Assembly: GCA_017518185.1 (NCBI GenBank)
Contig: JAFWWB010000072.1
Coordinates: 1 to 64,000 of the forward strand
Length of the DNA stretch: 64,000 bases
From: Lachnospiraceae bacterium
GTDB lineage: Bacteria > Bacillota > Clostridia > Lachnospirales > Lachnospiraceae
Reading direction: 5' to 3'
Part shown: piece by piece, positions 13,102 to 35,101 of the stretch
How positions within the stretch are numbered: position 1 is the stretch's first letter
How the letters are laid out: the number at the start of each line of letters is the position of its first letter
Position numbers and translations under genes: made by a program
Notes under the pieces: model-generated
What the model was told of the DNA's origin: nothing
What the model saw: only the letters and a program-made list of their open reading frames with translations
Databases searched by the model: none

Positions 13102-13932
13102 ATGGAGCTTCTGAACGGGGAGCAGGAGGATAAGCTTGAAAGGCTGAGAACGTACCTCAGGGAACTGGGTTCCCTTGCGGTCGGCTTTTCGGGCGGCGTT
13201 GATTCCTCATTCCTGCTGGTCGTCGCCCATGAGGTGCTGGGTGACAGGGTGATCGCCGTCACCGGGGCGGATGCTTCGATGCCCGAACGTGAGATGGAGG
13301 AGGCAAAGGCATTCTGCAGTGAGCGGGGCATAAGGCATATCTTCTGCAAAACGGATCCTTTTAAGGAAGAAGCGTACAGGAACAACAGACCGGACAGATG
13401 CTATTTCTGCAAGCGCGGCATCTATAAAGAGATAAAAAGGATAGCTGATGAGAACGGCATCGCCTGGACCGCCGAGGGGTCAAATGTGGACGATACCGGA
13501 GATTACAGGCCGGGACTTAAGGCTGTGGAGGAGCTTTCGGTGAAGAGTCCCCTGCGGGAGGCCGGACTGACAAAAAAGGATATACGCATGATATCCAAAG
13601 CCATGGGACTGCCGACCTGGAATAAACCGGCTTATGCCTGTCTTGCATCGCGCTTTGTCTACGGCGAGGAGATCACGGAAGAGAAGCTTAAGATGATAGA
13701 CCGGGCGGAGCAGTTTCTGATAGAGCACGGCTTTTTGGAAGAAAGGGTACGCATGCACGGGAACATCGCCAGGATAGAAGTGCCCGCAGAAGATATACCG
13801 CTTCTTGCGGAAGCGGGGATACGTGAGAAAGTGTATTCACGCTTCAAAGAGCTGGGGTTCATGTATGTAACGCTGGATATGCGCGGATACCGGATGGGAA
13901 GCATGAATGAAGTCCTGGATCCCGGCAAATGA
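13102..13932 (+). CDS. larE: ATP-dependent sulfur transferase LarE
   Basis: The 276-residue protein is a PP-loop ATP pyrophosphatase: FSGGVDSSF at residues 29-37, then DRCYFCKRGIY and PTWNKPAYACLASR. LarE adds sulfur to pyridinium carboxylate mononucleotide to make the nickel-pincer cofactor of lactate racemase-type enzymes. Cys100, Cys103 and Cys180 are all present. The three-cysteine LarE type is thought to hold a [4Fe-4S] cluster that delivers sulfur catalytically, unlike the one-cysteine type that sacrifices its own sulfur. No larA, larB or larC lies in the window, so its partners are elsewhere or the protein serves another thiolation. It lies 16 bases after the permease gene. Confidence 0.88.
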   Translation: MELLNGEQEDKLERLRTYLRELGSLAVGFSGGVDSSFLLVVAHEVLGDRVIAVTGADASMPEREMEEAKAFCSERGIRHIFCKTDPFKEEAYRNNRPDRCYFCKRGIYKEIKRIADENGIAWTAEGSNVDDTGDYRPGLKAVEELSVKSPLREAGLTKKDIRMISKAMGLPTWNKPAYACLASRFVYGEEITEEKLKMIDRAEQFLIEHGFLEERVRMHGNIARIEVPAEDIPLLAEAGIREKVYSRFKELGFMYVTLDMRGYRMGSMNEVLDPGK

Positions 13933-15517: not shown

Positions 15518-15544
15518 GTTGAAAGTTTCATATCGATAGTAAAA

Positions 15545-15730
15545 CGGTGCCTGCGTATCGCCATTTGGATACAAGGGTTAAAAGGGAAACAGGTGAAAGA
15601 CCTGTGCGAACTCGTCACTGTGAGTGCGGAGTGCAGCTGTAGTTCCGTTACGGAGTCACTGGGTAAAACCGGGAAGGCTTACGGCTGCGTGTTGATGTAC
15701 AAGCCAGGAGACCTGCCTTTTACTGGTACA
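15545..15730 (+). ncRNA. Cobalamin (B12) riboswitch
   Basis: The conserved parts are in order: a 5' GGTGCCTGCG, the AAAGGGAAACAGGTGAAA block near 15580-15597 with its closing GACCTGTGCGA, and the B12 box AAGCCAGGAGACCTGCC (15701-15717). The size of about 185 bases is normal. It senses adenosyl- or methylcobalamin and shuts the operon when the coenzyme is plentiful. The terminator at 15811-15857 is its probable expression platform. It heads a 20-kb gene run of uptake and synthesis genes. Confidence 0.95.
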
Positions 15731-15810
15731 GGGAGAGATCCCGGGCCACGAGTAATTGGTCGTACTGCATAGGCGGGATTTACAATCCTGTCCTTTTGTC
15801 GGGCATGATC

Positions 15811-15937: not shown

Positions 15938-17596
15938 ATGAAGAAAAAGTTTTTGGCAGTGTTGATGGCAGCAACGGTCGCGGCGGGAACGCTGGCCGGC
16001 TGCGGTGAGAGCGCCCCTGCGCAGGAGACCATGGATATGCCCACCACGGAGGCAGCGCCCACTGAGGCGCCGACGGAGGAAGCAGAGCCCACGGAGAGCG
16101 AGGCGGAGGTGGTCGAAGAGACAGAGGAGCTTTCGGATGAGGAGAAGGCGGCAGCAGTGGCAGAACTGATAGATGCCATCTATGTACAGCAGAGGACCGA
16201 CGAGACCGATGAGCAGTGCGCAGCTGCAAAGGCAGCCTGGGATGCGCTCACGGATGCCCAGAAGGAGCTGGTGGAAGGTGAAAATGCAGACCCCGATTAT
16301 TTCGGCAGGGATACGGGAGACGCTTCACTGGACGATCCCCTTAATGAAGACGGCATAGGAGAGAATGAGATACTGGTGGTAAGCTTCGGGACATCCTTTA
16401 ATGACAGCCGCGTAAAAGATATCAGCAGTGTTGAGAAGGCGATACAGGAAGCCAATCCCGGCTGGTCAGTCAGAAGGGCATTCACGGCACAGATCATCAT
16501 AAACCATGTGCAGGCCAGGGACGGGGAGAAGATCGACAATGTTGACCAGGCCCTTCAGCGCGCCGTTGACAACGGGGTTCAGAACCTGGTGATACAGCCC
16601 ACCCATCTCATGCACGGCGCAGAGTATGACGAGCTGATGGAGGCTGTGAGCGAATATGAGGGGAAGATAGAGAATATAGCCGTTGCAGAGCCTCTGCTGG
16701 GGGAGGTGGGCTCGGATGCCACTATGATAAATGAAGACAAGAAGACTGTTGCCGAGGCCATAACCGCAGAGGCGGTAAGCGAAGCAGGATACGGCTCCAT
16801 TGAAGAGGCCTCTGAGGACGGCACCGCATTTGTCTTCATGGGACACGGCACCGCCCATACCGCAAAGGTGAGCTACAGCCAGATGGCTACACAGATGCAG
16901 GAGCTGGGCTATGAGAACGTCTTCGTGGGCACCGTAGAGGGCTAGCCCGAAGAGACTGCATGCGAGAACGTGATAGAGGCCGTTAAGGAAGCGGGCTACA
17001 GCAAGGTGGTGCTCCGTCCCCTGATGGTAGTGGCCGGTGACCACGCCAACAACGATATGGCCGGTGATGATGAGGATTCCTGGAAGAGCATGTTTGAGGC
17101 TGATGGCTCCTTTGAGAGCATCGACTGCCAGATAGCTGGTCTCGGAAGGATAGATGCTGTAAAGGAGCTTTACAAGGCCCATACCGCAGCCTGCATCGCG
17201 GAGAGTGGGATGACTGTCGCGGAAGCTGCCCTGCCGGCAGACGGAGTCTATGAAGTAAAGTTTACCACCGACAGCTCCATGTTCAAGGTCAACGAGGCAA
17301 ATAACGACATGGGTGTGCTGACCGTAGATGACGGAAAGATGTTCATACATGTGAGCCTTGCTTCCAAGAATATAGTCAATCTCTATCCCGGGCTGGCAGA
17401 GGATGCCGCAAAGGATGGGGCTGAACTGCTTCAGCCCACCACTGATACCGTGACCTATGCTGACGGGATGAGCGAGGAAGTGAACGGCTTTGATGTACCC
17501 GTGCCCTATCTGGATGAGGAGTTCGACCTGGCTCTTATCGGGACCAAGGGAGTATGGTATGACCACAAGGTAGTGGTGGCAAGCCCTGCGGTATAA
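15938..17596 (+). pseudogene. cbiK: Exported sirohydrochlorin cobaltochelatase-like lipoprotein (CbiK type), interrupted by in-frame TAG
   Basis: ATG 15938 has AGGGAG nine bases upstream and begins a lipoprotein signal (KKKFLAVLMAATVAAG, then LAGC). An acidic Glu/Thr/Pro linker to about residue 65 anchors the CbiK domain outside the membrane. CbiK motifs are ILVVSFGTSFNDSR, QPTHLMHGAEYDEL, FMGHGTAHTA and, after the stop, LMVVAGDHANNDM; the three His-bearing motifs are the expected metal ligands. A TAG at 16943-16945 falls in FVGTVEG-stop-PEET, where relatives have Tyr. The same frame then runs 216 more codons, ending in a beta-rich domain (GKMFIHVSLASKNI, FDVPVPYLDEEFDLALIG). If real, the stop removes the last metal ligand. 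A sequencing error or suppression is also possible. Confidence 0.88.
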
Positions 17597-17608
17597 GGAA
17601 ATAACTGT

Positions 17609-19177
17609 TTGGAATCATCACGGAATAAAAAGAACGGAATAGTTTTCTGGACGCTTATACTCTGTATAGGCCAGATGATGGTGACCTCCTGCGCGAAGCA
17701 GGAGGTTACTTTTTCGGAGGAGGAGTCCGTTCCGGAGCCGGTACTCACGGAGGAGAGCGGGGATGGGGAATACCTCATAGACATCACGATGGAAGGCGGA
17801 TCCGGGAAGGCATATATCCTGTCGCCGGTGAAGGTAACGAAGGAAGAGGGAAAGTACACTGCCCTTCTTGTATGGAACAGCCCCAACTATGATTATATGA
17901 TAGTTGACGGTGTGAGATACGAAAATGAGAACGAAGGGGGGGCTTCCACCTTTACCGTTCCTCTGAAGGATACGGAGGCACCGCTTAAGATCACGGCGGA
18001 TACCGTGGCGATGAGTAAGCCCCATGAGATAGAATATACCATTTACTGGAACAGCTCACCGCAGGCTGAAAGCAGCGGGTCTTTTGCAGCCGACGTTCAG
18101 GAAGGAGATCCTGACGGAACGGAGTTTTCGGAACTGGTATTTACGGAGGAAACGGAGCTTAAATATGCCGAACAGTTCAGTATTAAAAAATTTGAGGGCG
18201 GAAGTCTTGTAAATATAAAGAAATACGGGGACCTGCTCCTGGTGGACGAGGGCTGCCCCGTGCCACGTAATGTACCGGCGGAGGTATGCATCCTGAAAAA
18301 GCCTCTGGACAGGACCTATCTGGTGTCTACTTCTGCCATGGATTTTATCTGTGCCACGGACAGGCTGGACAGAGTTCGCCTTACGGGGACTAAGGCGGAG
18401 GACTGGTATATAGAGGAGGCCGCAGAAGCCCTTGATGAGGGCAGGATCTTATACGCCGGGAAATACAGTTCGCCTGATTACGAGCTTCTGCTGAACGAGG
18501 GCTGTGACCTTGCGATAGAAAATACCATGATAGAACATAAGCCTGCGGTAAAGGAAAAGCTTGCGGCCCTGGGGATACCTGTGCTGATCGAGACCTCCAG
18601 CTACGAAAGCCACCCCCTGGGGAGACTGGAATGGATAAAGTTTTACGGACTGCTCTTTGATAATGAGGAGAAGGCCTGTGAGCTGTATGAGGAGGAGCTT
18701 TCACGTATAGCGCCTTTGATGGAACAGCCCGGTACGGGACTTAAGGTGGCGTTCTTTCATGTCACTTCAGCCGGGATGATCAATGTGAGGAAAAAGGGCG
18801 ACTATATATCGAGCATGATAGAGCTTGCGGGAGGGGAGTATGTTCCCGGCGGAGGGAATGAGGCAGCCGACAATATGCTCTCGACGATGAACATACAGAT
18901 GGAGGATTTTTATGCCGCGGCTGTGGACGCGGATATACTGATCTACAACAGCACGATAACAGGAGAGCTTTCTTCGGTCGATGAGCTGATAGCGCTGAAC
19001 GCCCTGTTCAAGGATTTCAAGGCGGTAAAGAACGGAAGGGTGTACTGCACGGAGAGGGATCTTTTCCAGCAGGTCAGCGGCATGGCGGATTTCATGGAGG
19101 ATCTGCGGAACATATATGAGGATGAAGACAGCGATACCGTTTATCTCTTCAGGCTGAAAGGGAAGGGCGGATCATGA
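17609..19177 (+). CDS. Cobalamin/heme-type ABC transporter substrate-binding lipoprotein with extra N-terminal domain
   Basis: The TTG start at 17609 follows AAGGAAATAACTG. The signal IVFWTLILCIGQMMVTSC gives a lipidated Cys. Residues about 50-150 form a beta-rich domain (GKAYILSPVKVTKEEGKYTA, NYDYMIVDG, ending HEIEYTIYW) that loosely resembles the C-terminal domain of the preceding chelatase and NEAT-like heme-binding folds. Residues about 175-520 are a BtuF/FecB-type binding protein (LLLVDEGCPVPRNVP, NEGCDLAIENTMI, IPVLIETSSYESHPLGRLEW). It delivers a corrinoid or other tetrapyrrole to the permease that overlaps its stop by four bases. Regulation by the B12 riboswitch favours corrinoids. 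Confidence 0.82.
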   Translation: MESSRNKKNGIVFWTLILCIGQMMVTSCAKQEVTFSEEESVPEPVLTEESGDGEYLIDITMEGGSGKAYILSPVKVTKEEGKYTALLVWNSPNYDYMIVDGVRYENENEGGASTFTVPLKDTEAPLKITADTVAMSKPHEIEYTIYWNSSPQAESSGSFAADVQEGDPDGTEFSELVFTEETELKYAEQFSIKKFEGGSLVNIKKYGDLLLVDEGCPVPRNVPAEVCILKKPLDRTYLVSTSAMDFICATDRLDRVRLTGTKAEDWYIEEAAEALDEGRILYAGKYSSPDYELLLNEGCDLAIENTMIEHKPAVKEKLAALGIPVLIETSSYESHPLGRLEWIKFYGLLFDNEEKACELYEEELSRIAPLMEQPGTGLKVAFFHVTSAGMINVRKKGDYISSMIELAGGEYVPGGGNEAADNMLSTMNIQMEDFYAAAVDADILIYNSTITGELSSVDELIALNALFKDFKAVKNGRVYCTERDLFQQVSGMADFMEDLRNIYEDEDSDTVYLFRLKGKGGS

Positions 19178-20181
19178 AGCATAAAAGAGCGATAGCGGCC
19201 TTCGGCCTTATGATAACTGCGCTCGTCATACTCTGCATGGCGGATCTTATGCTGGGCACGGTATCCGTTCCCGTTAAGGAGCTCATGGATATACTCGGGG
19301 GAAGGATCACGGAGGGCATGAACCACAGCATAATCATGGGCATACGCCTTCCGAGGATGCTGGGGGCTGTGATCACCGGCGGAGCCCTGGCACTTTCCGG
19401 ATATCTGCTCCAGACCTTTTTCGCAAACCCGGTGGTGGGGCCTTTTGTGCTGGGCATCTCTTCGGGAGCCAAGCTGGCGGTGGCCCTTTCCATGATATTC
19501 ATACTTTCAAGAGGGCTTCAGACCGGATCGGCGATGCTGATCACGGCTGCTTTTGCCGGAGCCATGACCGTCATGGGCTTTGTGCTTCTTGTATCGCTTA
19601 AGGTAAAGAGCAGGAGCGCGCTGGTGGTCTGCGGTATCATGGCGGGTTACATCTGCTCGGCGGTCACGGATCTGGTGGTGACCTTTGCGGACGACGCCAA
19701 TATTGTCAATCTGCATAACTGGTCCCTGGGAAGTCTTTCGGGACTGGATATGCCGGATGTCACGACCATGGCTGTCATAGTACTGCTGTGTTCCGTGCTG
19801 ATATTCTTCATGTCCAAGCCCATAGGCGCCTACAGGCTCGGGGAGAACTACGCGGCTAACATGGGCGTGAACGTAACGGCCCTCAGGGTCATACTGATAC
19901 TTGTATCCAGCATGCTGGCGGCATGTGTGACGGCCTTTGTGGGCCCGGTGTCCTTTGTGGGGATAGCGATACCGCATCTGACGAAGAGCGCGTTTAAGAC
20001 TACTTCACCGCGGGTTATGATACCTGCCTGTTTTCTGCTGGGAGCCTGTGTGACCGTGCTCTGCGACGGTATAGCCAGGACGGTATTCGCGCCAACGGAG
20101 GTGAGCATAAGCTCCGTGACGGCTGTACTGCTGGTGCCGGTGGTCATACGGATGTTAATATCGAGGAAGGCGCGGTCATGA
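19174..20181 (+). CDS. btuC: FecCD-family permease (BtuC-like)
   Basis: The 335-residue protein has about nine or ten hydrophobic helices and the family landmarks IIMGIRLPRMLGAVITGGAL, LQTFFANPVVGPFVLGISSG, SLGSLSGLD and VGPVSFVGIAIPHLTK. It is the membrane channel of a type II importer for vitamin B12, heme or siderophores. Its start overlaps the binding-protein stop (ATGA) and its stop overlaps the next start, so all three import genes are coupled. A B12-type cargo is inferred from the riboswitch and operon. Confidence 0.9.
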   Translation: MKHKRAIAAFGLMITALVILCMADLMLGTVSVPVKELMDILGGRITEGMNHSIIMGIRLPRMLGAVITGGALALSGYLLQTFFANPVVGPFVLGISSGAKLAVALSMIFILSRGLQTGSAMLITAAFAGAMTVMGFVLLVSLKVKSRSALVVCGIMAGYICSAVTDLVVTFADDANIVNLHNWSLGSLSGLDMPDVTTMAVIVLLCSVLIFFMSKPIGAYRLGENYAANMGVNVTALRVILILVSSMLAACVTAFVGPVSFVGIAIPHLTKSAFKTTSPRVMIPACFLLGACVTVLCDGIARTVFAPTEVSISSVTAVLLVPVVIRMLISRKARS

Positions 20182-22472
20182 CGGGCGATAAGGGGATAAA
20201 GACCGATAAACTGGTCATAGGTTACGACAGGGACCTGATAAGGGATATCTGTCTGGAGGTAAAGCCGGGAAGGGTCATGACTCTGATAGGGCCCAACGGC
20301 TGCGGGAAATCCACGCTCTTAAAGACCATAACCGGACAGCTGAAAAAACGCGGGGGTGTGGTCTTTGTCGACGGCAGCGACAGGGAAGGCATGAACAGGC
20401 TCGAACTGGCACGGAGCGTCTCGATGGTCACTACGGAAAGAGTGAATCCCGAGCTTATGAGCTGCAGAGAAGTGGTGGCTATGGGAAGGTATCCCTACAC
20501 CGGAAGGCTGGGGATACTTTCAGAAAAAGACAGGGCCGTGACGGAGGAGGCTATGGCTTCCACGGGAACGCTGGACATAGCGGAACGGCTGTTCACGAAC
20601 ATAAGCGACGGACAGAGGCAGAGGGTGATGCTGGCCAGGGCAGTGTGCCAGGAGCCGGAGATACTGGTGCTGGATGAACCCACTTCTTATCTGGATATCA
20701 GGTACAGGGTGGATATACTTACGCAGATAAAGAGCCTGGCCCGCGAAAAGGGTATAGCGGTGATAATGTCGCTGCATGAGCTGGAGACGGCGATGCGGAT
20801 CTCGGATACGGTAGTGGCAATGAACGGAGAGGGCGTGCAGAGGCTGGGTACGCCGGAGGAAGTGTTTGAGGAAGGCTTCATACGCAGGCTGTACGGCATA
20901 GAGGGCAAAGACATATCGCTGGTCGGGGATGCGCCATGGTTTAAGACTTCAATACATGAAAAACTGCCTGTGCCTTCAGGGAAGGCAGGGGGAAAGACTA
21001 AGGTCATAATGGTGCAGGGCACGATGTCGGGCGTAGGAAAGAGCATGATAGCGGCTGCGCTCTGCAGGATATTTACACAGGACGGCTACAGGGTGGCGCC
21101 CTTTAAATCCCAGAACATGGCCCTCAATTCCTGTGTTACCAGGGAAGGGCTGGAGATGGGAAGAGCGCAGGTGATGCAGGCAGAGTGCTGCGGGATCGAA
21201 CCCAGGGTCTGCATGAATCCCATACTGCTGAAGCCCACGGGAGAGAACGGTTCCCAGGTCATCATTAACGGCATACCCAGGGGGGATATGAACGCCAGGG
21301 AGTATTTCAGCAGGAAGAAGGAACTGGTACCGGTGATAAAGAAGGCCTATGAGGAGCTCTGCGAAACAGTCGACATCGTGGTCGTTGAGGGTGCGGGCTC
21401 TCCGGCAGAGCTGAACCTGAAAGAGGATGATATAGTTAATATGGGACTGGCCCGTATCCTGGATGCGCCCGTGATACTGGCGGGGGATATAGACAGGGGC
21501 GGCGTTTTCGCACAGCTCATAGGGACAGTAGAGCTGCTGGAAGAGGAGGAGAGAAGGCGCATAGGCGGGCTCATCGTAAACAAACTCAGGGGAGACCGCT
21601 CCCTCTTTGACAGGGGAGTAAGGATACTGGAGGAAAAGACGGGGATAAAGGTGCTGGGTACCCTGCCCTATATAAAGCTGGACCTGGATGATGAGGATTC
21701 CCAGTCCGGCCGCTTTGAGGTCCATGAGCGGAAGGAACTGGACCTGGCAGTGATACATCTGCCCCATATATCCAATTTCACGGACTTTTCGGTATTTGAC
21801 CAGCTTGAGGAGGTATCGGTAAACTATACCGAAAGCGTAAAGGATCTGGAGGGCAGCGACATGATCATACTGCCCGGCACGAAGAATACCATCGCGGATC
21901 TCAGGTGGCTTAAGGAAAAAGGACTGGCGGAGGAGATAATAAGGCTGGCGGGCATGGGGAAGCCGGTATTCGGAATATGCGGAGGCTACCAGATGCTGGG
22001 ACGCTCGGTCAGCGACCCCGAAAAGGTCGAGGACGGTGGAAGCGAAGAGGGACTGGGGCTGCTTGAAGCCGAGACGGTGCTTACCGGGGAAAAGGTACGT
22101 TCCCTCTATGAAGGAAGGGTAGAGAACAGCGGCGGCCTGTTTAAGTGCCTGGAGGGCCGCAGGGTCAGGGGATATGAGATACATATGGGGCAGACGGAGA
22201 TCTCTCCGGGGGTTAAGCCTTTTACTTCAGGAGGCAGCGGCTGTCACAGTGAAAATGTCTACGGCACCTATGTTCATGGCTTTTTCGACCTGAAGGAGAT
22301 CGCGGAGGGAGTGCTGGAGGCTGTGGCAGCCTTAAGCGGCAGGAGCTTAGACCTTTCGGGGCTTATCGATCAGGACGCATATAAGGAGAGCCGCTACGAT
22401 CTGCTGGCGGATACGGTGAGGAAATATCTGGATATGGACAGCATATACAGGATCATGGGGATAGAGAGATGA
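20178..22472 (+). CDS. Fusion of BtuD-type ABC ATPase and cobyric acid synthase CobQ/CbiP
   Basis: One 764-residue frame holds two enzymes. Residues 1 to about 260 are an importer ATPase: Walker A GPNGCGKST, signature ISDGQRQRVMLARA, Walker B ILVLDEPTSYLD and switch MSLHELE. Residues about 275-764 are cobyric acid synthase: VQGTMSGVGKSMIAAALCRI, FKSQNMALNSCVT, EGAGSPAELNL, LPGTKNTIADLRWLKEKG, the amidase Cys in FGICGGYQMLG, and the His in TYVHGFFD. CobQ/CbiP amidates four side chains of the corrin ring. No stop, start or ribosome site is seen at the junction (about 20,960-21,000), so the fusion looks genuine and both halves look intact. It joins import and synthesis in one chain. Confidence 0.92.
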   Translation: MTGDKGIKTDKLVIGYDRDLIRDICLEVKPGRVMTLIGPNGCGKSTLLKTITGQLKKRGGVVFVDGSDREGMNRLELARSVSMVTTERVNPELMSCREVVAMGRYPYTGRLGILSEKDRAVTEEAMASTGTLDIAERLFTNISDGQRQRVMLARAVCQEPEILVLDEPTSYLDIRYRVDILTQIKSLAREKGIAVIMSLHELETAMRISDTVVAMNGEGVQRLGTPEEVFEEGFIRRLYGIEGKDISLVGDAPWFKTSIHEKLPVPSGKAGGKTKVIMVQGTMSGVGKSMIAAALCRIFTQDGYRVAPFKSQNMALNSCVTREGLEMGRAQVMQAECCGIEPRVCMNPILLKPTGENGSQVIINGIPRGDMNAREYFSRKKELVPVIKKAYEELCETVDIVVVEGAGSPAELNLKEDDIVNMGLARILDAPVILAGDIDRGGVFAQLIGTVELLEEEERRRIGGLIVNKLRGDRSLFDRGVRILEEKTGIKVLGTLPYIKLDLDDEDSQSGRFEVHERKELDLAVIHLPHISNFTDFSVFDQLEEVSVNYTESVKDLEGSDMIILPGTKNTIADLRWLKEKGLAEEIIRLAGMGKPVFGICGGYQMLGRSVSDPEKVEDGGSEEGLGLLEAETVLTGEKVRSLYEGRVENSGGLFKCLEGRRVRGYEIHMGQTEISPGVKPFTSGGSGCHSENVYGTYVHGFFDLKEIAEGVLEAVAALSGRSLDLSGLIDQDAYKESRYDLLADTVRKYLDMDSIYRIMGIER

Positions 22473-27436: not shown

Positions 27437-28069
27437 ATGGAATATATGAGACCGGCTGAGATAGAAAAGCGCAGCTTCGAGATAATAGACGGTGAGCTGG
27501 CTGAAAAGGGGATAAGGCTTACGGGAGAGACAGCTCCCGTTATCAGGCGCTGCATCCATACCACCGCGGATCTTGAATATGCGGAGAGCATGGTGTTTTC
27601 GGAAGATGCCATAGGGAAACTGAAGGAGCTCATACGCGGAGGCGCCGATATCGTGACGGATACCAACATGGCGCTGAGCGGGATAAATAAAAAAGAATTC
27701 TCAAGATACGGCGGGAGCATAAGCTGCCATATGGCGGATGAGGACGTGGCCCGGGAAGCACAGGAAAGAGGCGTGACCAGAGCCTCGGTCAGCATGGAAA
27801 AGGCAATGAGTAGCGGGCGCAGGACCGTCTTTGTGTCGGGGAATGCGCCTACCGCGCTCATCACGCTGTGGGAGCATCATGAGAGCGGAAGTTACAGCCC
27901 GGCCTTTGTGATAGGCGTGCCGGTGGGATTCGTGAACGTTGTGGAGGCCAAGGAGCTCATCATAAAGAGCGGGATCCCGCACATCGTCAACCGCGGGAGA
28001 AAGGGCGGGAGCAACGTGGCTGCAGCTATAGTCAATGCCGTATTGTATATGATGCGGGATGAAGTATGA
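27437..28069 (+). CDS. cbiC: Precorrin-8X / cobalt-precorrin-8 methylmutase
   Basis: The 210-residue enzyme carries the catalytic His in IRRCIHTTADLEYAESMVF and the family segments GADIVTDTNMALSG, FVSGNAPTALITL and VIGVPVGFVNVVEAKELI. It moves a methyl group from C11 to C12 to form cobyrinic acid. It starts three bases after cobD and its stop overlaps the cbiD start. Confidence 0.96.
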   Translation: MEYMRPAEIEKRSFEIIDGELAEKGIRLTGETAPVIRRCIHTTADLEYAESMVFSEDAIGKLKELIRGGADIVTDTNMALSGINKKEFSRYGGSISCHMADEDVAREAQERGVTRASVSMEKAMSSGRRTVFVSGNAPTALITLWEHHESGSYSPAFVIGVPVGFVNVVEAKELIIKSGIPHIVNRGRKGGSNVAAAIVNAVLYMMRDEV

Positions 28070-29204
28070 GTGAGATGAAGCACGGTTTTACAACGGGAAG
28101 CTGCGCTGCGGCAGCGGCCAAGGCGGCGGCCTGCATGCTTTTCGGCGGAGGAAGGCGCAAGAGCATCTCCATAATGACTCCGGCAGGGATAGAATACAGG
28201 GCGGAGCTAGAGGATATTAGCGTTTCAGAAGACCATGTGAGCTGCGCCGTGAGAAAGTATTCCGGAGACGATCCCGATGTGACAGCTGGAACCCTCATAT
28301 ATGCGGCAGTATATGCCTGCGGCGGCAGCGGGAATGCCGTGGAGATAGAGGCGGGAGAAGGCGTTGGAACGGTGACGAGACCGGGGCTGGACCAGCCTCC
28401 GGGAAGTCCCGCCATCAACTCAGTTCCCCGGAGGATGATAGAGGAAAACGTAAGGGAAGCGGCGGAGGTCTTCGGTTACTGCGGTGATATCAGGGTGGTG
28501 GTATCCGTGCCGGGCGGCGGGAGCTGGCGCTGAAGACCTTTAATCCGAGGCTGGGAATAGAGGGCGGTATCTCGATAATAGGGACCAGCGGGATCATAGA
28601 GCCGATGAGCACACGCGCCATACTTGAGACGATACGGACGGAGCTCAGACAGCTTAAGGAAGAAGGGCACAGGACCGCGGTGGTGTCTCCGGGAAATTAC
28701 GGCCTGGAGTTTATGAAGAGCAGCTACGGCTACGATCCTGACCGGGCGGTGAAGTGCTCCAATTTTATAGGCGAGACCATAGACATGGTCTGCGGGCTGG
28801 GCTATGAAAGGCTGCTCTTATGCGGTCATGTGGGGAAGCTGATAAAGCTTTCCTGCGGGATAATGAACACCCATTCCGCGGAGGCAGACTGCAGGGCCGA
28901 GCTTATGGCGGCAGCAGCCGCACGAAACGGAGCGGACAGCGCCCTCATCAACAGGATACTTGACTGTGTGAATACCGAAGAGGCCTGTGAGCTCATGAAG
29001 GGAGCGGGGATGCTTAAGGCCTGCTTCGAAACAGTGACGGAAAAGGCAGCATATCATCTCAGGAAAAGGGCCGGAGACCGTACCGCAGCGGAGCTTATGA
29101 TCTACTCCTCCGTATACGGTCTGCTGGGGGCCACCTCCGGAGCTGAAGGCTTCCTGAAAGATGCGATGGCGGAGCCGCTTATGCCGGATAAGGGAGAAGG
29201 ATAA
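28066..29204 (+). pseudogene. cbiD: Cobalt-precorrin-5B C1-methyltransferase, frameshifted
   Basis: The first part (28066 to about 28520) reads KHGFTTGSCAAAAAKAA, PGLDQPPGSPAINSVPRRMI and DIRVVVSVPGG. At about 28519-28520 the frame breaks, and the remainder (from 28521 to 29204) continues in the next frame with ELALKTFNPRLGIEGGISII, GTSGIIEPMSTRAI and LLCGHVGKLIKLSCGIMNTH. Family members have PGGEE-L-A at the break, so one base is missing in the G-rich GGCGGCGGGAG. Both halves are otherwise intact and highly conserved, so the lesion is very recent or a sequencing error. CbiD methylates C1 of the corrin ring and is essential for the anaerobic route. Confidence 0.92.
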
Positions 29205-29975
29205 ATGATAGATTTTGTTGGAGCCGGCCCCGGGGCTGAGGACCTGATAACACTGAGGGGCATGAGACTGCTGGAAAAGGCGGATGTGGTCATATACGCG
29301 GGAAGCCTGGTGAACCCGGGGCTGCTTTCCTATGCACCGGAGGGAGCGGAGATCCATAACAGCGCGGAGCTTACCCTGGAGGAAGTGACGGAGATCATGA
29401 CGGAGGCGGACCGCAAAGGGCTGCGGGTGGTGAGACTTCATACCGGGGACCAGAGCCTTTACGGGGCTGTGCGGGAGCAGATGGATATACTTGATGAAAG
29501 AGGCATAGCCTACAGCTCCTGTCCGGGAGTGAGCGCCGCTTTCGGAGCGGCGGCTGCCCTTGATATGGAATACACGCTGCCCGGAGTGAGCCAGACCCTC
29601 ATCATCACCAGGATGGAGGGCAGGACGGCTGTGCCGGAAAAGGAGAGCATAGAGCTGCTGGCAGCCCACGGTTCCTCCATGGCCGTGTACCTGAGCGCCG
29701 GGATGCTTAAGGGCCTATCAGAGCGTCTCATGGAGGGGGGCTACAGTGCGGATACGCCGGCGGCTATTGTCTATAAGGCCACCTGGCCGGAGGAGAAGAA
29801 GCTGCTCTGCACCGTGGGGACACTTTATGAGACGGGAGAGGAGCATGGCATAAGCAGGACCGCGGTGGTGCTGATTGGGGAGGCTGTGACCCACAGCTCT
29901 TATGAAAGATCGAAGCTCTACGATCCGGGCTTTACCACGGGATACAGAAAAGGAAAAGACGGGATAAAAGGATGA
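29205..29975 (+). CDS. cbiF: Cobalt-precorrin-4 C11-methyltransferase
   Basis: The 256-residue SAM-dependent tetrapyrrole methylase has FVGAGPGAEDLITLRG, ADVVIYAGSLVNPGLL, VRLHTGDQSLYGAVREQMD and SCPGVSAAFGAAAAL, which are diagnostic of CbiF/CobM rather than CbiL or CbiH. It starts directly after the cbiD stop (no gap) behind GGGAGAAGG. Confidence 0.95.
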   Translation: MIDFVGAGPGAEDLITLRGMRLLEKADVVIYAGSLVNPGLLSYAPEGAEIHNSAELTLEEVTEIMTEADRKGLRVVRLHTGDQSLYGAVREQMDILDERGIAYSSCPGVSAAFGAAAALDMEYTLPGVSQTLIITRMEGRTAVPEKESIELLAAHGSSMAVYLSAGMLKGLSERLMEGGYSADTPAAIVYKATWPEEKKLLCTVGTLYETGEEHGISRTAVVLIGEAVTHSSYERSKLYDPGFTTGYRKGKDGIKG

Positions 29976-30958
29976 GAAAGATGGCGGTCTGCTTCAGCAG
30001 GCCAGGCATGGAACTGATAAAGAGACTGAACGCAGAAGCAGTAAAGCACGGGATAGAGCCGGCGGAGGCCTACGTCTGTACGGGAGCGGCGGGGGAAGGC
30101 TTCATAAGCTTCGGAGGCAGCGTTTCGGAATGGGCGGAGCTTGCGGACAGCAGGGGAGCCTGCGCGATCTTCGTATCCGCGGCAGGGATCGCCGTAAGGG
30201 CAGTGGCCGGCATCTGCAGGGACAAGCTGACGGATATACCGGTGATAGTGATAGATGATAACGGCCGCTTTGTGATACCTATAATGTCGGGGCATGCCGG
30301 CGGGGGCAACAAGATCGCCGTGATACTGGCGGAGCTTCTGGGAGCGGTGCCGGTTATCACCACTTCCACGGATGTGAACGGAGCTTTTTCCGCGGATGTC
30401 TATGCAAAGGAGCAGGGACTGCGCATAGAGAACCGGAGCGGGATCAGGAAGGTATCCGCAAAAGCGATAGAGGGGAAACCGGTCACACTTTCCTTTAAGC
30501 ACTATCCCCCGCAGGAGCCTGTGGATATCATAGTCGCGGATGAGACGGACCGGGAATATGACCTGCTGCTGAAGCCGAAAAGATATGTGCTGGGGATCGG
30601 GGCACGTAAGGGTAAGGATCCGGCAGAGGCGGAAGCATTCATACTGAACGTGCTCAGGGAAAACGGCGTGGAGACCGGTGACGTATATGCGGTGTGCACC
30701 ATAGATATAAAGAAGGATGAAGAGGCAATAAAAGCATTCTGCGCAAAGTACAGGATACCGCTCCTTTGTTTTGATGCGGAGCTGCTGTCTGATGCGGAGG
30801 GGGAGTTTGAAGTCTCGGAGTTTGTAAAGGAAAAGACCGGGGTTGACAATGTATGCCAGAGGGCGGCCGCTCTGGGGGCAGGCCCCGGAGGCAGGGATAT
30901 CACGGGCAAGATAAAGGGTGCCGGCATAACGGCTGCGCTCTTTATGAGGAAGGTGTAA
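29972..30958 (+). CDS. cbiG: Cobalt-precorrin-5A hydrolase
   Basis: The 328-residue protein has the three CbiG parts. The N-terminal domain has ICRDKLTDIPVIVIDDNGRF and MSGHAGGGNKIAVILAELLG, which is the strongest signature. The middle domain has KRYVLGIGARKGKDPAEAE. The C-terminal domain has NVCQRAAALGAGPGG. It opens the delta-lactone ring and releases acetaldehyde. It overlaps cbiF by four bases and abuts cbiH. Confidence 0.95.
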   Translation: MRKMAVCFSRPGMELIKRLNAEAVKHGIEPAEAYVCTGAAGEGFISFGGSVSEWAELADSRGACAIFVSAAGIAVRAVAGICRDKLTDIPVIVIDDNGRFVIPIMSGHAGGGNKIAVILAELLGAVPVITTSTDVNGAFSADVYAKEQGLRIENRSGIRKVSAKAIEGKPVTLSFKHYPPQEPVDIIVADETDREYDLLLKPKRYVLGIGARKGKDPAEAEAFILNVLRENGVETGDVYAVCTIDIKKDEEAIKAFCAKYRIPLLCFDAELLSDAEGEFEVSEFVKEKTGVDNVCQRAAALGAGPGGRDITGKIKGAGITAALFMRKV

Positions 30959-31723
30959 ATGGCAAAGATATATGTAGTGGGCATAGGTCCTGGTGAGGAA
31001 AAGTATCTTACGGGACAGGCCGCTGATGCGCTGGAAAGAAGCAGTGTCATAGCGGGTTATAAGACCTACATCGAGCTGGTGCGGGACAGGTATCCGGATA
31101 AAGAGTTCTTCTCCAACGGAATGAAACAGGAGCGGGAGAGATGCAGGCAGTGCGTTGCATACGCGCTGGAGGGAAAGACCGTCTCCCTTATCTGCAGCGG
31201 TGACGCGGGTGTATACGGTATGGCTTCCCTGATGCTGGAGACGGCGGAGGAGATGCGTCAGGAGACCGGAGGGCTTCCTGATGCGGAGGATATAGAGATC
31301 GTTCCCGGCGTGACGGCGGCTCTTTCCGGAGCGGCGCTTTTAGGCGCGCCCATAGGCCACGACTTCTGCGTCATCAGCTTAAGCGACCTGCTCACCCCGT
31401 TGGAGCTTATAGAAAAGAGGCTTAAGGCTGCGGCAGAGGCGGATCTCTGCATAGTCCTGTACAATCCCGGCAGCAGGAACAGGGCAGGGTATCTTAAGCA
31501 TGCCTGCGGGATACTGATGGAGAAGACAGGAGCAGAGCGGGTCTGCGGTTATGTGAGGAACATCGGCAGGCAGGGAACGGAGCAGCGCATCTGTACCCTG
31601 AAGGAACTGGCAGAGACGGAGGCGGATATGTTCACCACTGTCTTCATCGGTAATTCCAGAACAAGGGAATGCGGGGGCAGGATGGTCACGCCCAGAGGAT
31701 ATGATAAAGATGGAAACAGCTGA
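30959..31723 (+). CDS. cbiH: Cobalt-factor III / precorrin-3B C17-methyltransferase
   Basis: The 254-residue methylase shows KIYVVGIGPGEEKYLTGQA, VIAGYKTYIELV, CSGDAGVYGMASLMLE, EIVPGVTAALSGAALLGAP and the typical SLSDLLTPLELIEKRLKAAA. It methylates C17 with ring contraction. It begins directly after the cbiG stop. Its end overlaps the next gene by 23 bases. Confidence 0.95.
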   Translation: MAKIYVVGIGPGEEKYLTGQAADALERSSVIAGYKTYIELVRDRYPDKEFFSNGMKQERERCRQCVAYALEGKTVSLICSGDAGVYGMASLMLETAEEMRQETGGLPDAEDIEIVPGVTAALSGAALLGAPIGHDFCVISLSDLLTPLELIEKRLKAAAEADLCIVLYNPGSRNRAGYLKHACGILMEKTGAERVCGYVRNIGRQGTEQRICTLKELAETEADMFTTVFIGNSRTRECGGRMVTPRGYDKDGNS

Positions 31724-33707
31724 ACGACTGATCATTTTTTCCGGTACCACGGAGGGCAGGCTGCTTTCGGACAGATTATGCGCCGAAGGCCTGCATCACA
31801 TAGTTTCCGTGGCATCGGGATACGGAAGCGATATGATGAGGGAGGATCCCAGCAGGGAGGTCCATGAGGGACGCATGGATGCGGAAGAGATGTGCGCGTT
31901 TCTTAAGGCCCGGGGCTTTACGGCAGAGGCGAAACTCATCGATGCAACCCACCCTTACGCGGTGGAGGTGAGCCGCAATATCCGCGCGGCAGCGGAGAAG
32001 ACCGGGGCGGAATATATACGGGTGCTGAGAAAAAGCATTGAGGCCGGGGAGGAGGGCGTGATACTTTACGACAGTTTCCGGGACTGGGCGGCGGCCGCAG
32101 ATACTTTTGAGGGGAACATACTGCTGACTACCGGGAGCAAGGAGCTGCGGGAATACAGTGAGATCGTATCGGAGGAGACGCTGAAGCGCAGCTATGTAAG
32201 GGTGCTGCCCTCTGCGGAGAGCCTTTCTATATGCTCGGAATGCGGCGTGGATGCATCGCATATCATCGCCATGAACGGGCCCTTCGGAACGGAGCTTAAC
32301 CTTGCAATACTTAAGCAGTATGATATCGCGCATCTGGTGACAAAGGAGAGCGGCATTCAGGGAGGCTTTGAGGAAAAGAAGGAGGCGGCGGCGCTTTACG
32401 GAGCGAAGCTGCACGTCATAAGCAGACCTGTCAGGGAAGAGGGGAAAGAGCTGGAGGAAGTGTTTACGCTGCTCACCGGAAAACGCCCGGAGGAGAAAAA
32501 GCTTAAGCAGATCATACTGGCCGGCATGGGCATGGGAAGCGAAGCTTCGATGACCTGTGAAGTGCGTGAGGCCGTGGCGGGAGCGGACATCGTTTTCGGC
32601 GCAAAGAGGCTGATAAACGGGATAAGGGCGAAGGAGAAGCATCCCCTGTACCTGGCGGCGGATATCATACCCCTTCTTAAGGAACGGCATGATATAGAAA
32701 AAGCGGTGGTCCTCTTTTCGGGGGACAGCGGCTTTTACAGCGGCGCCGCAGCCCTGGGACGGGCGCTGAAGGAATGGGAGGAGGCACCGGAGATAAAGCT
32801 CCTTCCGGGAGTATCTTCCGTCTCGTATCTGGCAGCGGCCCTCGGAGTGAATTATGAGGATGCATGGATCTGCAGCCTTCACGGAAGGAACAGTGAAGAT
32901 GATATACTGGCTGCGGCAGCAGGGATAAGGACAAGAGAAAAGAGCTTTGTGCTGCTCTCCGGAAGGGAAGATGCGTATAGACTTAAGGAGCAGCTCCTGA
33001 AAGAGGGGACCGGGGCGGAGATCTTTGCGGGGCTATGTCTGTCCTATGAAGAAGAGTTCGTGGGCAGGCTTGAGGATATGCCGGAAGCGGACGGTCCCGT
33101 TACCATACTGGTGCTGAACAGGAAGCCGGAACGGAGGCTTATCATAAATGCGCTGCCGGATGAAAGCTTTATACGGGGGAGCGTTCCCATGACAAAGGAA
33201 TGCATACGGCACGAGAGCATAAGAAGGCTGGGACTAAGGGAAGGTGACCTGCTATGGGATATAGGCGGCGGGACCGGCTCGGTATCCATTGAGGCAGCCC
33301 TGCTGCATCCCTCCATCCGGGTATGCACCGTTGAGAGGGACAGCGAAGCCTGCGGCCTTATCAGGGAAAATATCAAAAAGCACGGTGTCCGGAACGTGAA
33401 GCTTATCGAAGGGGATGCATCCCTTCTGTTGAAGGAGTCCGATAAACCGGACTGTGTTTTTATCGGAGGCAGCGGAGGAAAGCTCAGTGAGATCCTTGAG
33501 GGCATAAGCGAAAAGGGCAGCGGCATCAGAGTGGTGATCAACGCCATAAGCCTTGAGACCCTGGGAGAGATAACGGACTTTATCATGGAAAAGCATATAA
33601 AGGATGAGGAGATAGTGCAGCTGGCGGTGAGCGATATCCGCAGGGTGGGAGCGCATCATATACCACGCAGCGGAAATCCCGTTACCATCGCGGCGTTTAC
33701 GTTATGA
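31701..33707 (+). CDS. Triple fusion CbiJ-CbiE-CbiT
   Basis: One 668-residue chain holds three enzymes. Residues about 8-258 are cobalt-precorrin-6A reductase CbiJ (IIFSGTTEGRLLSDRL, LIDATHPYAVEVSRNI, ILLTTGSKEL). Residues about 270-470 are the C5-methyltransferase CbiE (ILAGMGMGSEASMTCEVREA, LFSGDSGFYSGAAAL, LLPGVSSVSYLAAALG). Residues about 490-668 are the C15-methylating decarboxylase CbiT (VPMTKECIRHESIRRL, LWDIGGGTGSVSIEAAL, IGGSGGKLSEIL). CbiE-CbiT fusions (CobL-like) are common; adding CbiJ at the front is rarer. All three active regions look intact. ATG 31710 is an alternative start. The stop overlaps the cbiA start. Confidence 0.94.
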   Translation: MIKMETAERLIIFSGTTEGRLLSDRLCAEGLHHIVSVASGYGSDMMREDPSREVHEGRMDAEEMCAFLKARGFTAEAKLIDATHPYAVEVSRNIRAAAEKTGAEYIRVLRKSIEAGEEGVILYDSFRDWAAAADTFEGNILLTTGSKELREYSEIVSEETLKRSYVRVLPSAESLSICSECGVDASHIIAMNGPFGTELNLAILKQYDIAHLVTKESGIQGGFEEKKEAAALYGAKLHVISRPVREEGKELEEVFTLLTGKRPEEKKLKQIILAGMGMGSEASMTCEVREAVAGADIVFGAKRLINGIRAKEKHPLYLAADIIPLLKERHDIEKAVVLFSGDSGFYSGAAALGRALKEWEEAPEIKLLPGVSSVSYLAAALGVNYEDAWICSLHGRNSEDDILAAAAGIRTREKSFVLLSGREDAYRLKEQLLKEGTGAEIFAGLCLSYEEEFVGRLEDMPEADGPVTILVLNRKPERRLIINALPDESFIRGSVPMTKECIRHESIRRLGLREGDLLWDIGGGTGSVSIEAALLHPSIRVCTVERDSEACGLIRENIKKHGVRNVKLIEGDASLLLKESDKPDCVFIGGSGGKLSEILEGISEKGSGIRVVINAISLETLGEITDFIMEKHIKDEEIVQLAVSDIRRVGAHHIPRSGNPVTIAAFTL

Positions 33708-35101
33708 AGAAGGAAACTTTGAAAAAACCGAGACTGATGCTGGCTGCGGCGAAAAGCGGCAGCGGGAAGACCATGATCTGCTGCGGACTGCTGCAGTATC
33801 TGAAAAGGAGCGGGGCGGCGCCCGCCGCATTTAAGTGCGGGCCGGATTATATCGATCCAATGTTCCACAAGAAGGTGCTGGGGATAGACAGCGATAATCT
33901 GGATACCTTTTTCTCGGGCAGAGATGAGGTAAGGGAAATGGTGGCAGCCGCGGAAGGCGGCTGTGTCTGTATCGAGGGAGTTATGGGCTTATACGACGGC
34001 GCGTCTCCTTCCCGGACCGAGGGCTCCTGCTATGAGCTGGCGGAGTTTACGGATACTCCCATAGTGCTCGTGGTGGATGCCCGGGGCGCGGGAAGGACGC
34101 TCATCTCCGTGATAAAGGGCATACTTTCGGATGACAGTAACGGGCTTGTTAAAGGGATAATACTGAACCGGATGACGGGAAACTTTTATGAGCGTTTCCG
34201 CCCCTGCCTGGAGGAGGAACTGGAGCGTTCCGGTTTTGATGCGCGTGTCATCGGCTTCCTTCCGGTGCTTAAGGAGGCGGAGTTTGACAGCAGGCATCTG
34301 GGGCTTAAGCTGCCTTCGGAAACGGAGGATGTACTGCGGCGTATCGACTGCGTGGCCGATGCGCTGGCAGAGAATTGTGATATGGAGCTCCTTCGTGATA
34401 TAATGGAAGGAGCTGCGGAGCTTGAAGCCGCGGACAGGAGAGTGAGCCGTGCGCTTCCCCTGTCTGAAGAGCGGCCGGTGCTGGCCCTGGCTTATGACGA
34501 GGCCTTCTGCTTTTATTACAGGGAGAACCTGCGCCTGCTGGAACAGGCGGGGCTCAGGATAGAGAGATTTTCCCCCCTTCGGGACAGGGCTCTGCCGGAA
34601 GGGACGGCAGGCATACTTCTGGGAGGAGGATATCCGGAGCTGCACGGGGCAGAGCTCAGCGCCAATACCGCCATAAGGAACACCATACTTGAGGCAGTGG
34701 AATGCGGGATGCCCGTCATCGCGGAATGCGGGGGGTTCATGTATCTGCACGAACGCCTTGAGGATGCAGAGGGAAAAGAATATGATATGGTGGGTGCCGT
34801 AAAGGGGAAATGCTATCCTGTGGGGCATCCCGTGAGATTCGGCTATTTTGAACTTGAGGAATGCAGGGATCCCTTCTGGTCCGGAACGGAAGGGGTAAAA
34901 GGTCATGAGTTCCACTATTATGAGAGTGAGTCCTGCGGGGAACGCTGCGTGGCAGTTAAGAGGGCCACAGGGCAGCGCCGGAGCTGCATGGGAGGCAGCG
35001 GTGCCTGTTTCTGGGGATTCCCGCATTTTTACTACGCATCAAAACCGGTTATGGCGGAAAAGATAGCCGGGGCAGTGAAGGCATTTGCGGACAGAAGATA
35101 A
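33704..35101 (+). CDS. cbiA: Cobyrinate a,c-diamide synthase
   Basis: The 465-residue glutamine amidotransferase has the P-loop AAKSGSGKTMICCGLLQYL, FKCGPDYIDPMFHKKVLG, EGVMGLYDGASPSRTEGSCY, LLGGGYPELHGAELSANTAI and the amidase Cys in VIAECGGFMYLHE. It amidates the a and c side chains using glutamine and ATP. It overlaps the fusion gene by four bases. Confidence 0.96.
   Translation: MKKETLKKPRLMLAAAKSGSGKTMICCGLLQYLKRSGAAPAAFKCGPDYIDPMFHKKVLGIDSDNLDTFFSGRDEVREMVAAAEGGCVCIEGVMGLYDGASPSRTEGSCYELAEFTDTPIVLVVDARGAGRTLISVIKGILSDDSNGLVKGIILNRMTGNFYERFRPCLEEELERSGFDARVIGFLPVLKEAEFDSRHLGLKLPSETEDVLRRIDCVADALAENCDMELLRDIMEGAAELEAADRRVSRALPLSEERPVLALAYDEAFCFYYRENLRLLEQAGLRIERFSPLRDRALPEGTAGILLGGGYPELHGAELSANTAIRNTILEAVECGMPVIAECGGFMYLHERLEDAEGKEYDMVGAVKGKCYPVGHPVRFGYFELEECRDPFWSGTEGVKGHEFHYYESESCGERCVAVKRATGQRRSCMGGSGACFWGFPHFYYASKPVMAEKIAGAVKAFADRR

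Follow-up and report, generated by a model that had tools for sequence, protein, structure and literature searches.

A cobalamin-riboswitch-linked operon combining an exported CbiK, NEAT-fold domains and a BtuFCD-type importer in Lachnospiraceae, a candidate module for tetrapyrrole precursor salvage

The window, that is, the whole stretch of 64,000 nucleotides analysed here from a Lachnospiraceae genome in 92 contigs (G000), contains an operon that opens with a cobalamin riboswitch and encodes a CbiK-type chelatase, a BtuF-type binding lipoprotein, a permease, an ATPase fused to cobyric acid synthase and, further downstream, the enzymes of corrin-ring synthesis (Table 1). The Peripla_BP_2, FecCD and ABC ATPase genes lie together, as in BtuFCD-type ABC importers. 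A first-pass annotation of this DNA had proposed a surface relay under B12 control that links an exported chelatase to the importer. The regulatory part of this proposal holds, as the riboswitch precedes the operon in the window and occupies the same position ahead of CbiK in 10 of 10 relatives sampled. The link to the importer holds as well: BtuFCD-type genes are encoded with CbiK and with two extra domains, which we call A and B. Just upstream of the module lies a LarE-type sulfur transferase gene (13102-13932), and cbiJ, cbiE and cbiT are fused into a single gene (31701-33707). At another locus, L076, the cobalamin riboswitch is preceded at about 2 kb by a c-di-GMP-I riboswitch (L076:142-217).

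Table 1. Positions of the module parts in the window and of exporter-associated A-B or B genes at other loci
Feature	Position	Strand	Evidence
Cobalamin riboswitch, operon front	15528..15734	+	Rfam RF00174, 93.9 bits
Exported CbiK (predicted lipoprotein; lipobox LAGC), frame to in-frame TAG	15938..16945	+	Pfam CbiK, 141.1 bits
CbiK chelatase domain	16370..17191	+	PF06180, 235 bits across TAG
In-frame TAG within chelatase domain, between two catalytic-His motifs	16943..16945	+	
CbiK E/H/H motifs	16613-16633, 16838-16858, 17030-17056	+	Motif positions
Domain A, NEAT-fold, C-terminal to CbiK, downstream of TAG	17228..17593	+	
BtuF-type binding lipoprotein (predicted; lipobox VTSC)	17609..19177	+	Pfam Peripla_BP_2, 95.7 bits, residues 240-483
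Domain B, NEAT-fold, N-terminal to BtuF	17750..18079	+	
BtuC-type permease	19174..20181	+	Pfam FecCD, 245.6 bits
BtuD-type ATPase-CobQ (cobyric acid synthase) fusion	20178..22472	+	Pfam/NCBIfam matches
cbiC, cbiD (two frames), cbiF, cbiG, cbiH, cbiJ-cbiE-cbiT, cbiA (corrin-ring genes)	27437..35101	+	
Apparently membrane-anchored A-B or B near ABC-2 exporter (ATPase and permease)	L184, L190:4014-14540, L191:6978-10576, L195, L196, L199, L200, L201		

Both the chelatase and the binding protein had been annotated as lipoproteins, and we agree: LAGC follows the start at 15938 and VTSC the start at 17609. The start at 15938 has, in our judgement from the sequence context, the better-spaced ribosome site. 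A module search of genome contigs returned at least 561 loci, and the best 80 were analysed; because these were chosen by similarity to A-B, the tandem form is over-represented among them. In these best 80 of at least 561 loci, the looser of two heuristics, whose figures we use, detects a lipobox in 57/59 CbiK, 15/15 CbiK-A-B, 53/56 A-B, 60/64 BtuF and 8/8 A-B-BtuF frames (hyphens denote fusions), and the stricter one in 56/59, 15/15, 38/56, 18/64 and 5/8, respectively. The chelatase carries a predicted export signal in the window and in nearly all of these relatives. Signal-less chelatase relatives had been named as evidence against the proposal, and the CbiK and CbiK-A-B counts speak in its favor, with one contrary case, a short signal-less CbiK (264 aa) beside a membrane-anchored A-B protein in L190. 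This same case is what could be cited for the view that the signal peptides are misread and that CbiK is cytoplasmic as usual. Given a lipobox in 72/74 CbiK and CbiK-A-B frames of the best 80 loci, and given that one of the two remaining frames has a plain Sec-like signal, we consider that view extremely improbable.

Window-type CbiK shares its domain and active-site residues with the class II cobaltochelatase CbiK (PF06180; PDB 1qgo). The two pieces of the window gene, separated by an in-frame TAG, both pass the PF06180 cut-off of 26.2 bits (141.1 and 78.1 bits), and score 110.1 and 65.4 bits against the NCBIfam SiroCoChCbiK equivalog, below its threshold (>400 bits). We mapped the active site onto 1qgo, taking the catalytic residues to be the equivalents of E89, H145 and H207. 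The three are kept in 101/101 CbiK domains labelled window-type or exported, a set that includes two wrongly labelled CbiO-CbiK fusions, recognized by sequence, and probably four more, judged by length. In a CbiK tree, the 80 window-type domains fit together only into a clade of 90 leaves or more (support 0.70 for the one of 90), and no pure window-type clade exceeds 11; since exported CbiK is only loosely grouped, we claim no single origin for it. Between the lipobox and the chelatase domain, window-type CbiK has a conserved module of ~70 residues (window 16139-16340, approximately; IDAIYVQ ... DPDYFGRDTGDAS), for which no Pfam match above cut-off was found.

The window copy of the chelatase had been taken as intact, a point that the in-frame TAG contradicts. 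As sequenced, the product has 338 aa (counted from 15929) and lacks domain A. The TAG, also flagged by the PF06180 family search, follows the H145-type motif and precedes the H207-type motif and domain A, leaving the last catalytic residue beyond it. At this position all 91 relative frames, some genomes being counted twice, have Glu, Asp or Asn, and TAG is the stop of 8 of the 52 called window ORFs >150 aa, some of them spurious; recoding of TAG is therefore unlikely. A selenoprotein reading is ruled out by the codon, which is TAG and not TGA. Compared with the relative G004, CbiK identity on the two sides of the TAG is 72% and 69%, with pN of 0.19 and 0.20 and pS of 0.86 and 0.77 (pS is saturated), a pattern of strong constraint on cbiK substitutions both before and after the stop. 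Such similar conservation indicates either a recent lesion or a fault of the assembly, and the window copy is probably either broken or mis-sequenced. In this operon, cbiD too is distributed over two frames (28066-28533 and 28605-29204), and the two interruptions reflect either a decaying pathway in this strain or assembly errors.

The first-pass annotation had noticed that the C-terminal extra domain of the chelatase and the N-terminal extra domain of the binding protein resemble each other, an observation that is right and more general than thought. In a single profile-profile comparison, A and B align over 78 columns (prob 95.9, E 6.3e-9), and their structure models belong to the same fold family, whereas different predicted folds would have counted against a relationship. 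Three of the shared elements that had been listed are aligned, namely dGK/GKy (DDGK with EEGK), Asn-Ile/Asn-Tyr (SKNIVN with SPNYDY) and F-x-VP (FDVPV with FTVPL), whereas the late W/H strand falls outside the aligned stretch. Structure comparison of the A and B models aligned 1000 and 999 chains, and the first 45 and 44 entries listed, respectively, are NEAT domains or the haem-transfer protein Shp. This likeness is detected by fold and not by PDB sequence search, which returned no significant match for A, for B or for an anchored B (the best NEAT entries, for A, have E 0.4). Because B scores 18.8 bits against Pfam NEAT (PF05031; cut-off 32.8 bits) and A has no match, we term these domains NEAT-fold rather than NEAT members.

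Since the NEAT folds among the structures matched are haem carriers, acquisition of iron from haem or sirohaem comes up as a function of the module: CbiK would remove iron or swap metals in the manner of Porphyromonas FetB, and the NEAT-fold domains would pass haem. FetB of P. gingivalis (PDB 9b86; E 6.4e-34) is, like window-type CbiK, a CbiK relative, and is said to act on external porphyrins; a review, in the passages available to us, has it insert manganese into protoporphyrin (PMC13402209). Control by a B12 riboswitch and the location of the genes within a cobamide operon speak against iron acquisition, as does the failure of either domain to reach the Pfam NEAT cut-off. We know of no NEAT domains or B12 operon for FetB. 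The YxxxY haem-ligand positions, which we presume to lie in the last NEAT strand, fall near K107/Y111 in A and K90/I94 in B, so that the haem Tyr pair looks not kept, as far as the aligned ranges of the fold matches and the presumed Tyr positions allow a judgement. Haem as the likely cargo, an earlier suggestion, thus finds no support here, and the comparisons speak neither for nor against any ligand. Overall, we regard haem iron acquisition as distinctly improbable.

In most close relatives, the two domains form one separate protein. Thirteen of 16 same-genus loci encode CbiK, a separate A-B lipoprotein and then BtuF without B; of the others, L031 (G004) shares the window's arrangement of CbiK-A and B-BtuF, L032 carries CbiK-A with no BtuF within the locus stretch, and L036 has CbiK and A-B, where the stretch ends. 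Among the best 80 of at least 561 loci, 48 have CbiK, A-B and BtuF as three separate genes, 13 have CbiK-A-B followed by BtuF, 8 have CbiK followed by A-B-BtuF, one has an extra A-B ahead of the three-gene arrangement, and 10 have a part missing from the stretch (five with CbiK and A-B, three with CbiK-A-B, and two with A-B and BtuF). In a search of 250 family genomes, CbiK-A (an A match after CbiK in a frame of equal length) occurs in at least 13 genomes, and others have A and B in separate frames; exceptions to the order are G179, G213 and G238, with A before CbiK, and G096, with B before CbiK and A after it. These shifting gene boundaries and fusions suggest that A is the partner of CbiK and B that of BtuF. 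With A and B found now on CbiK, now in a protein of their own and now on BtuF, gene structure lends good support to the surface relay proposed in the first pass, and the relay, running CbiK-A-B-BtuF, is likely to be a physical one. At L183:7175-8998 (G115), B is kept with BtuFCD and a cobamide operon, and the stretch shows neither CbiK nor A.

We then compared the module with the pathway genes around it, scoring absences by profile searches of draft genomes. The close-relative set comprised 24 relatives, 15 same-genus genomes among them. The sole PF06180 match of G000, and of each of the 8 other same-genus genomes that have one, is window-type CbiK, and CbiD occurs in exactly these nine. No separate CbiX was found in the nine, the CbiX-type matches being the CbiK gene itself. 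HemC was absent from 15/15 same-genus genomes in these searches, and only G006 has a strong precorrin-2 dehydrogenase match. Of the early genes, HemC and CobA were searched in G000, which has no HemC and no CobA above cut-off; the single CobA match below it has a score resembling that of the genome's CbiF. Its corrin-ring pathway is incomplete, with no CbiL at E 1e-30 and a frameshifted cbiD. Without HemC and CobA, no precorrin-2 can be made by the known route, yet ring-contraction genes are kept, so that an external methylated tetrapyrrole would be needed.

The family set consisted of 250 genomes from 249 genera (completeness 90 or more) searched for CbiK, HemC, A-B, CbiD, CobA and CbiL. Matches were found for CbiK in 145 genomes, HemC in 113, CbiD in 145, A-B in 133 (many weak), CobA in 117 (above cut-off) and CbiL in 116 (at E 1e-30). 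Strong A-B or A matches, compiled by hand, occur in 80 of the 250 genomes, 79 of them with CbiK. We defined window-type CbiK by a match span of at least 813 bases, and 17 CbiK genomes, for which the match listing was too sparse for this assignment, were left out of the main groups. Of 34 CbiD-containing genomes with window-type CbiK only, 27 lack HemC and 7 have it: 14, including G000, lack HemC, CobA and CbiL, 12 lack HemC and CobA and have CbiL, 6 have all three, and two have other combinations (G046 and G256, both with HemC, have a second CbiK match outside the listing). By comparison, HemC, CobA and CbiL are all present in 15 of 15 CbiD-containing genomes with window-type and short CbiK (0/15 lacking HemC) and in 56 of 57 with short CbiK only and no strong A-B match (1/57 lacking HemC). 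Where short CbiK alone accompanies a strong A-B match and CbiD (n=20), 15 genomes have all three genes, 2 lack CbiL only and 3 lack HemC. HemC is also missing from 6 of 7 genomes with CbiD and no CbiK match, and from 5 of 9 unclassified genomes with a strong A-B match. The frequency of HemC absence in the window-type-only group differs from that in the rest of the CbiD-containing genomes at a Fisher p of 3e-12, uncorrected for shared ancestry. The lack of HemC and CobA in most window-type-only genomes suggests salvage of a precursor at the sirohydrochlorin level. CbiL is absent at E 1e-30 from 15 of the 27 that lack HemC, the window's genome included, and sirohydrochlorin itself would not suffice there. 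The presence of HemC in 7/34 window-type-only and 17/20 short-CbiK/A-B genomes means that the module is not confined to auxotrophs.

These genomes could instead take up intact corrinoids (cobalamin, cobinamide or others), in which case CbiK would have turned into a binding protein on the surface, with the orphan cbi genes in decay. BtuFCD homology and the cobalamin riboswitch fit such uptake, as do the interruptions of both cbiK and cbiD in the window, the CbiL-less genomes and the six genomes with CbiD that have neither HemC nor a CbiK match. However, the three catalytic residues are kept in every CbiK domain labelled window-type or exported, and cbiK shows strong constraint before and after the TAG. 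Moreover, CbiD is kept in 34/34 window-type-only genomes and CbiL in 12 of the 27 without HemC, a retention that makes little sense without a ring precursor. We therefore consider uptake of intact corrinoids unlikely.

With the one CbiK found predicted to lie outside, its catalytic residues kept in relatives, the parts encoded together and a B12 riboswitch in front, surface metallation followed by relay and import is the simplest reading, and we advance precursor salvage with surface metallation as a strong and testable hypothesis. In the substrate, reaction and direction of transfer that we infer, surface CbiK would act on a scavenged, methylated tetrapyrrole of the sirohydrochlorin or factor II-III level, into which it would insert cobalt or whose metal it would exchange; A would take the tetrapyrrole from CbiK, B would hand it to BtuF, and BtuCD would import it. 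Once imported, the precursor would feed the corrin-ring genes of the window, and the operon's own cbi genes would complete the ring. In CbiL-less genomes, a compound of the factor III level may be what is taken up, or a different methylase may substitute. Carriers without HemC and CobA would be precorrin-2-type salvagers. We judge it slightly more probable than its negation that Lachnospiraceae and some neighbours use this B12-riboswitch-controlled module for surface acquisition, with a precursor being metallated, relayed and imported and its corrin ring completed. More tentatively, and with somewhat less than even confidence, we suggest that the cobalt insertion of anaerobic B12 synthesis occurs outside the cytoplasm in these bacteria, through surface CbiK, a NEAT-fold relay, a B12-family importer and a truncated cbi pathway that uses tetrapyrroles from other gut microbes. 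If true, the metal-insertion step of B12 synthesis would take place at the cell surface, and a mid-pathway tetrapyrrole would be a shared good in the gut. In an entire class of gut bacteria, B12 synthesis would then be divided between species, with sirohydrochlorin or factor III as the level of exchange.

Desulfovibrio is known to have an exported CbiK and is, we take it, the source of the chelatase in PDB 2xvx, and two functional CbiK were reportedly described by Lobo and colleagues in 2008. Unlike Desulfovibrio and other class II CbiK, the protein described here is a Gram-positive lipoprotein, is tied to NEAT-fold domains and BtuFCD, and is often the only CbiK of its genome. The Isd/Hbp haem relays of Gram-positive bacteria, in which cargo is handed over at the surface to an ABC importer, have the NEAT fold in common with A and B; in contrast, A and B fall below the Pfam NEAT cut-off, are B12-regulated and are coupled to a chelatase. 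Tetrapyrrole-precursor salvagers were defined by Shelton et al. in 2018, who tested ALA cases, and the precorrin-2 salvagers among them have corrin-ring genes without early tetrapyrrole genes, as here (PMC6461909, in the sections consulted). P. gingivalis likewise lacks the steps to precorrin-2 according to the same sections, which describe no uptake system for precorrin-2 salvagers and leave open whether and how precursor auxotrophs take up precursors (PMC6461909). The precorrin-2 class is put at 0.6% in an excerpt of a review (PMC8123684). The window-type module is a candidate for the uptake system of these salvagers, and a widespread candidate route for predicted B12-precursor auxotrophs. 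The portions at hand of PMC7689651, PMC12654859, PMC6593275 and PMC2667541 describe no such module, and no combination of exported CbiK, NEAT domains and BtuFCD is described in the titles and abstract openings among the matches listed from the open-licence PMC literature.

Carriers with HemC might also run an export-and-return loop, in which sirohydrochlorin made by the cell leaves it, receives its metal outside and is then taken back up. A scan of 31 loci, 30 of them selected because they match A or B, identified eight in which an apparently membrane-anchored A-B or B adjoins, or lies one gene from, an ABC-2 exporter (Table 1), a possible candidate for a tetrapyrrole exporter judging from this gene neighbourhood. 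Six of the eight have CbiL or hem genes; in L190, the order is CbiL, the ABC-2 exporter, the short CbiK, the membrane-anchored A-B and then hem genes. Three further loci (L180, L202 and L203) have an exporter in the same stretch, and nine HemC-containing genomes with a single, short CbiK beside A-B would fit such a loop. However, among 14 HemC-containing genomes whose only CbiK is A-B-linked or window-type, an exporter permease lies near hem or cbiL genes only in G250, and the loop is inapplicable to genomes without HemC, such as that of the window. A general loop of this kind is thus unsupported around hem and cbiL genes, and we rate it as very unlikely. Finally, L180:4695-7415, L181:3445-6216, L182:7826-13264 and L185:6392-10180, all beside BtuF-BtuC-BtuD, encode proteins that are very large (906-1812 aa) and carry arrays of both A and B; they contain a BtuF-like stretch by BLAST, and the one scanned against Pfam gave no match.
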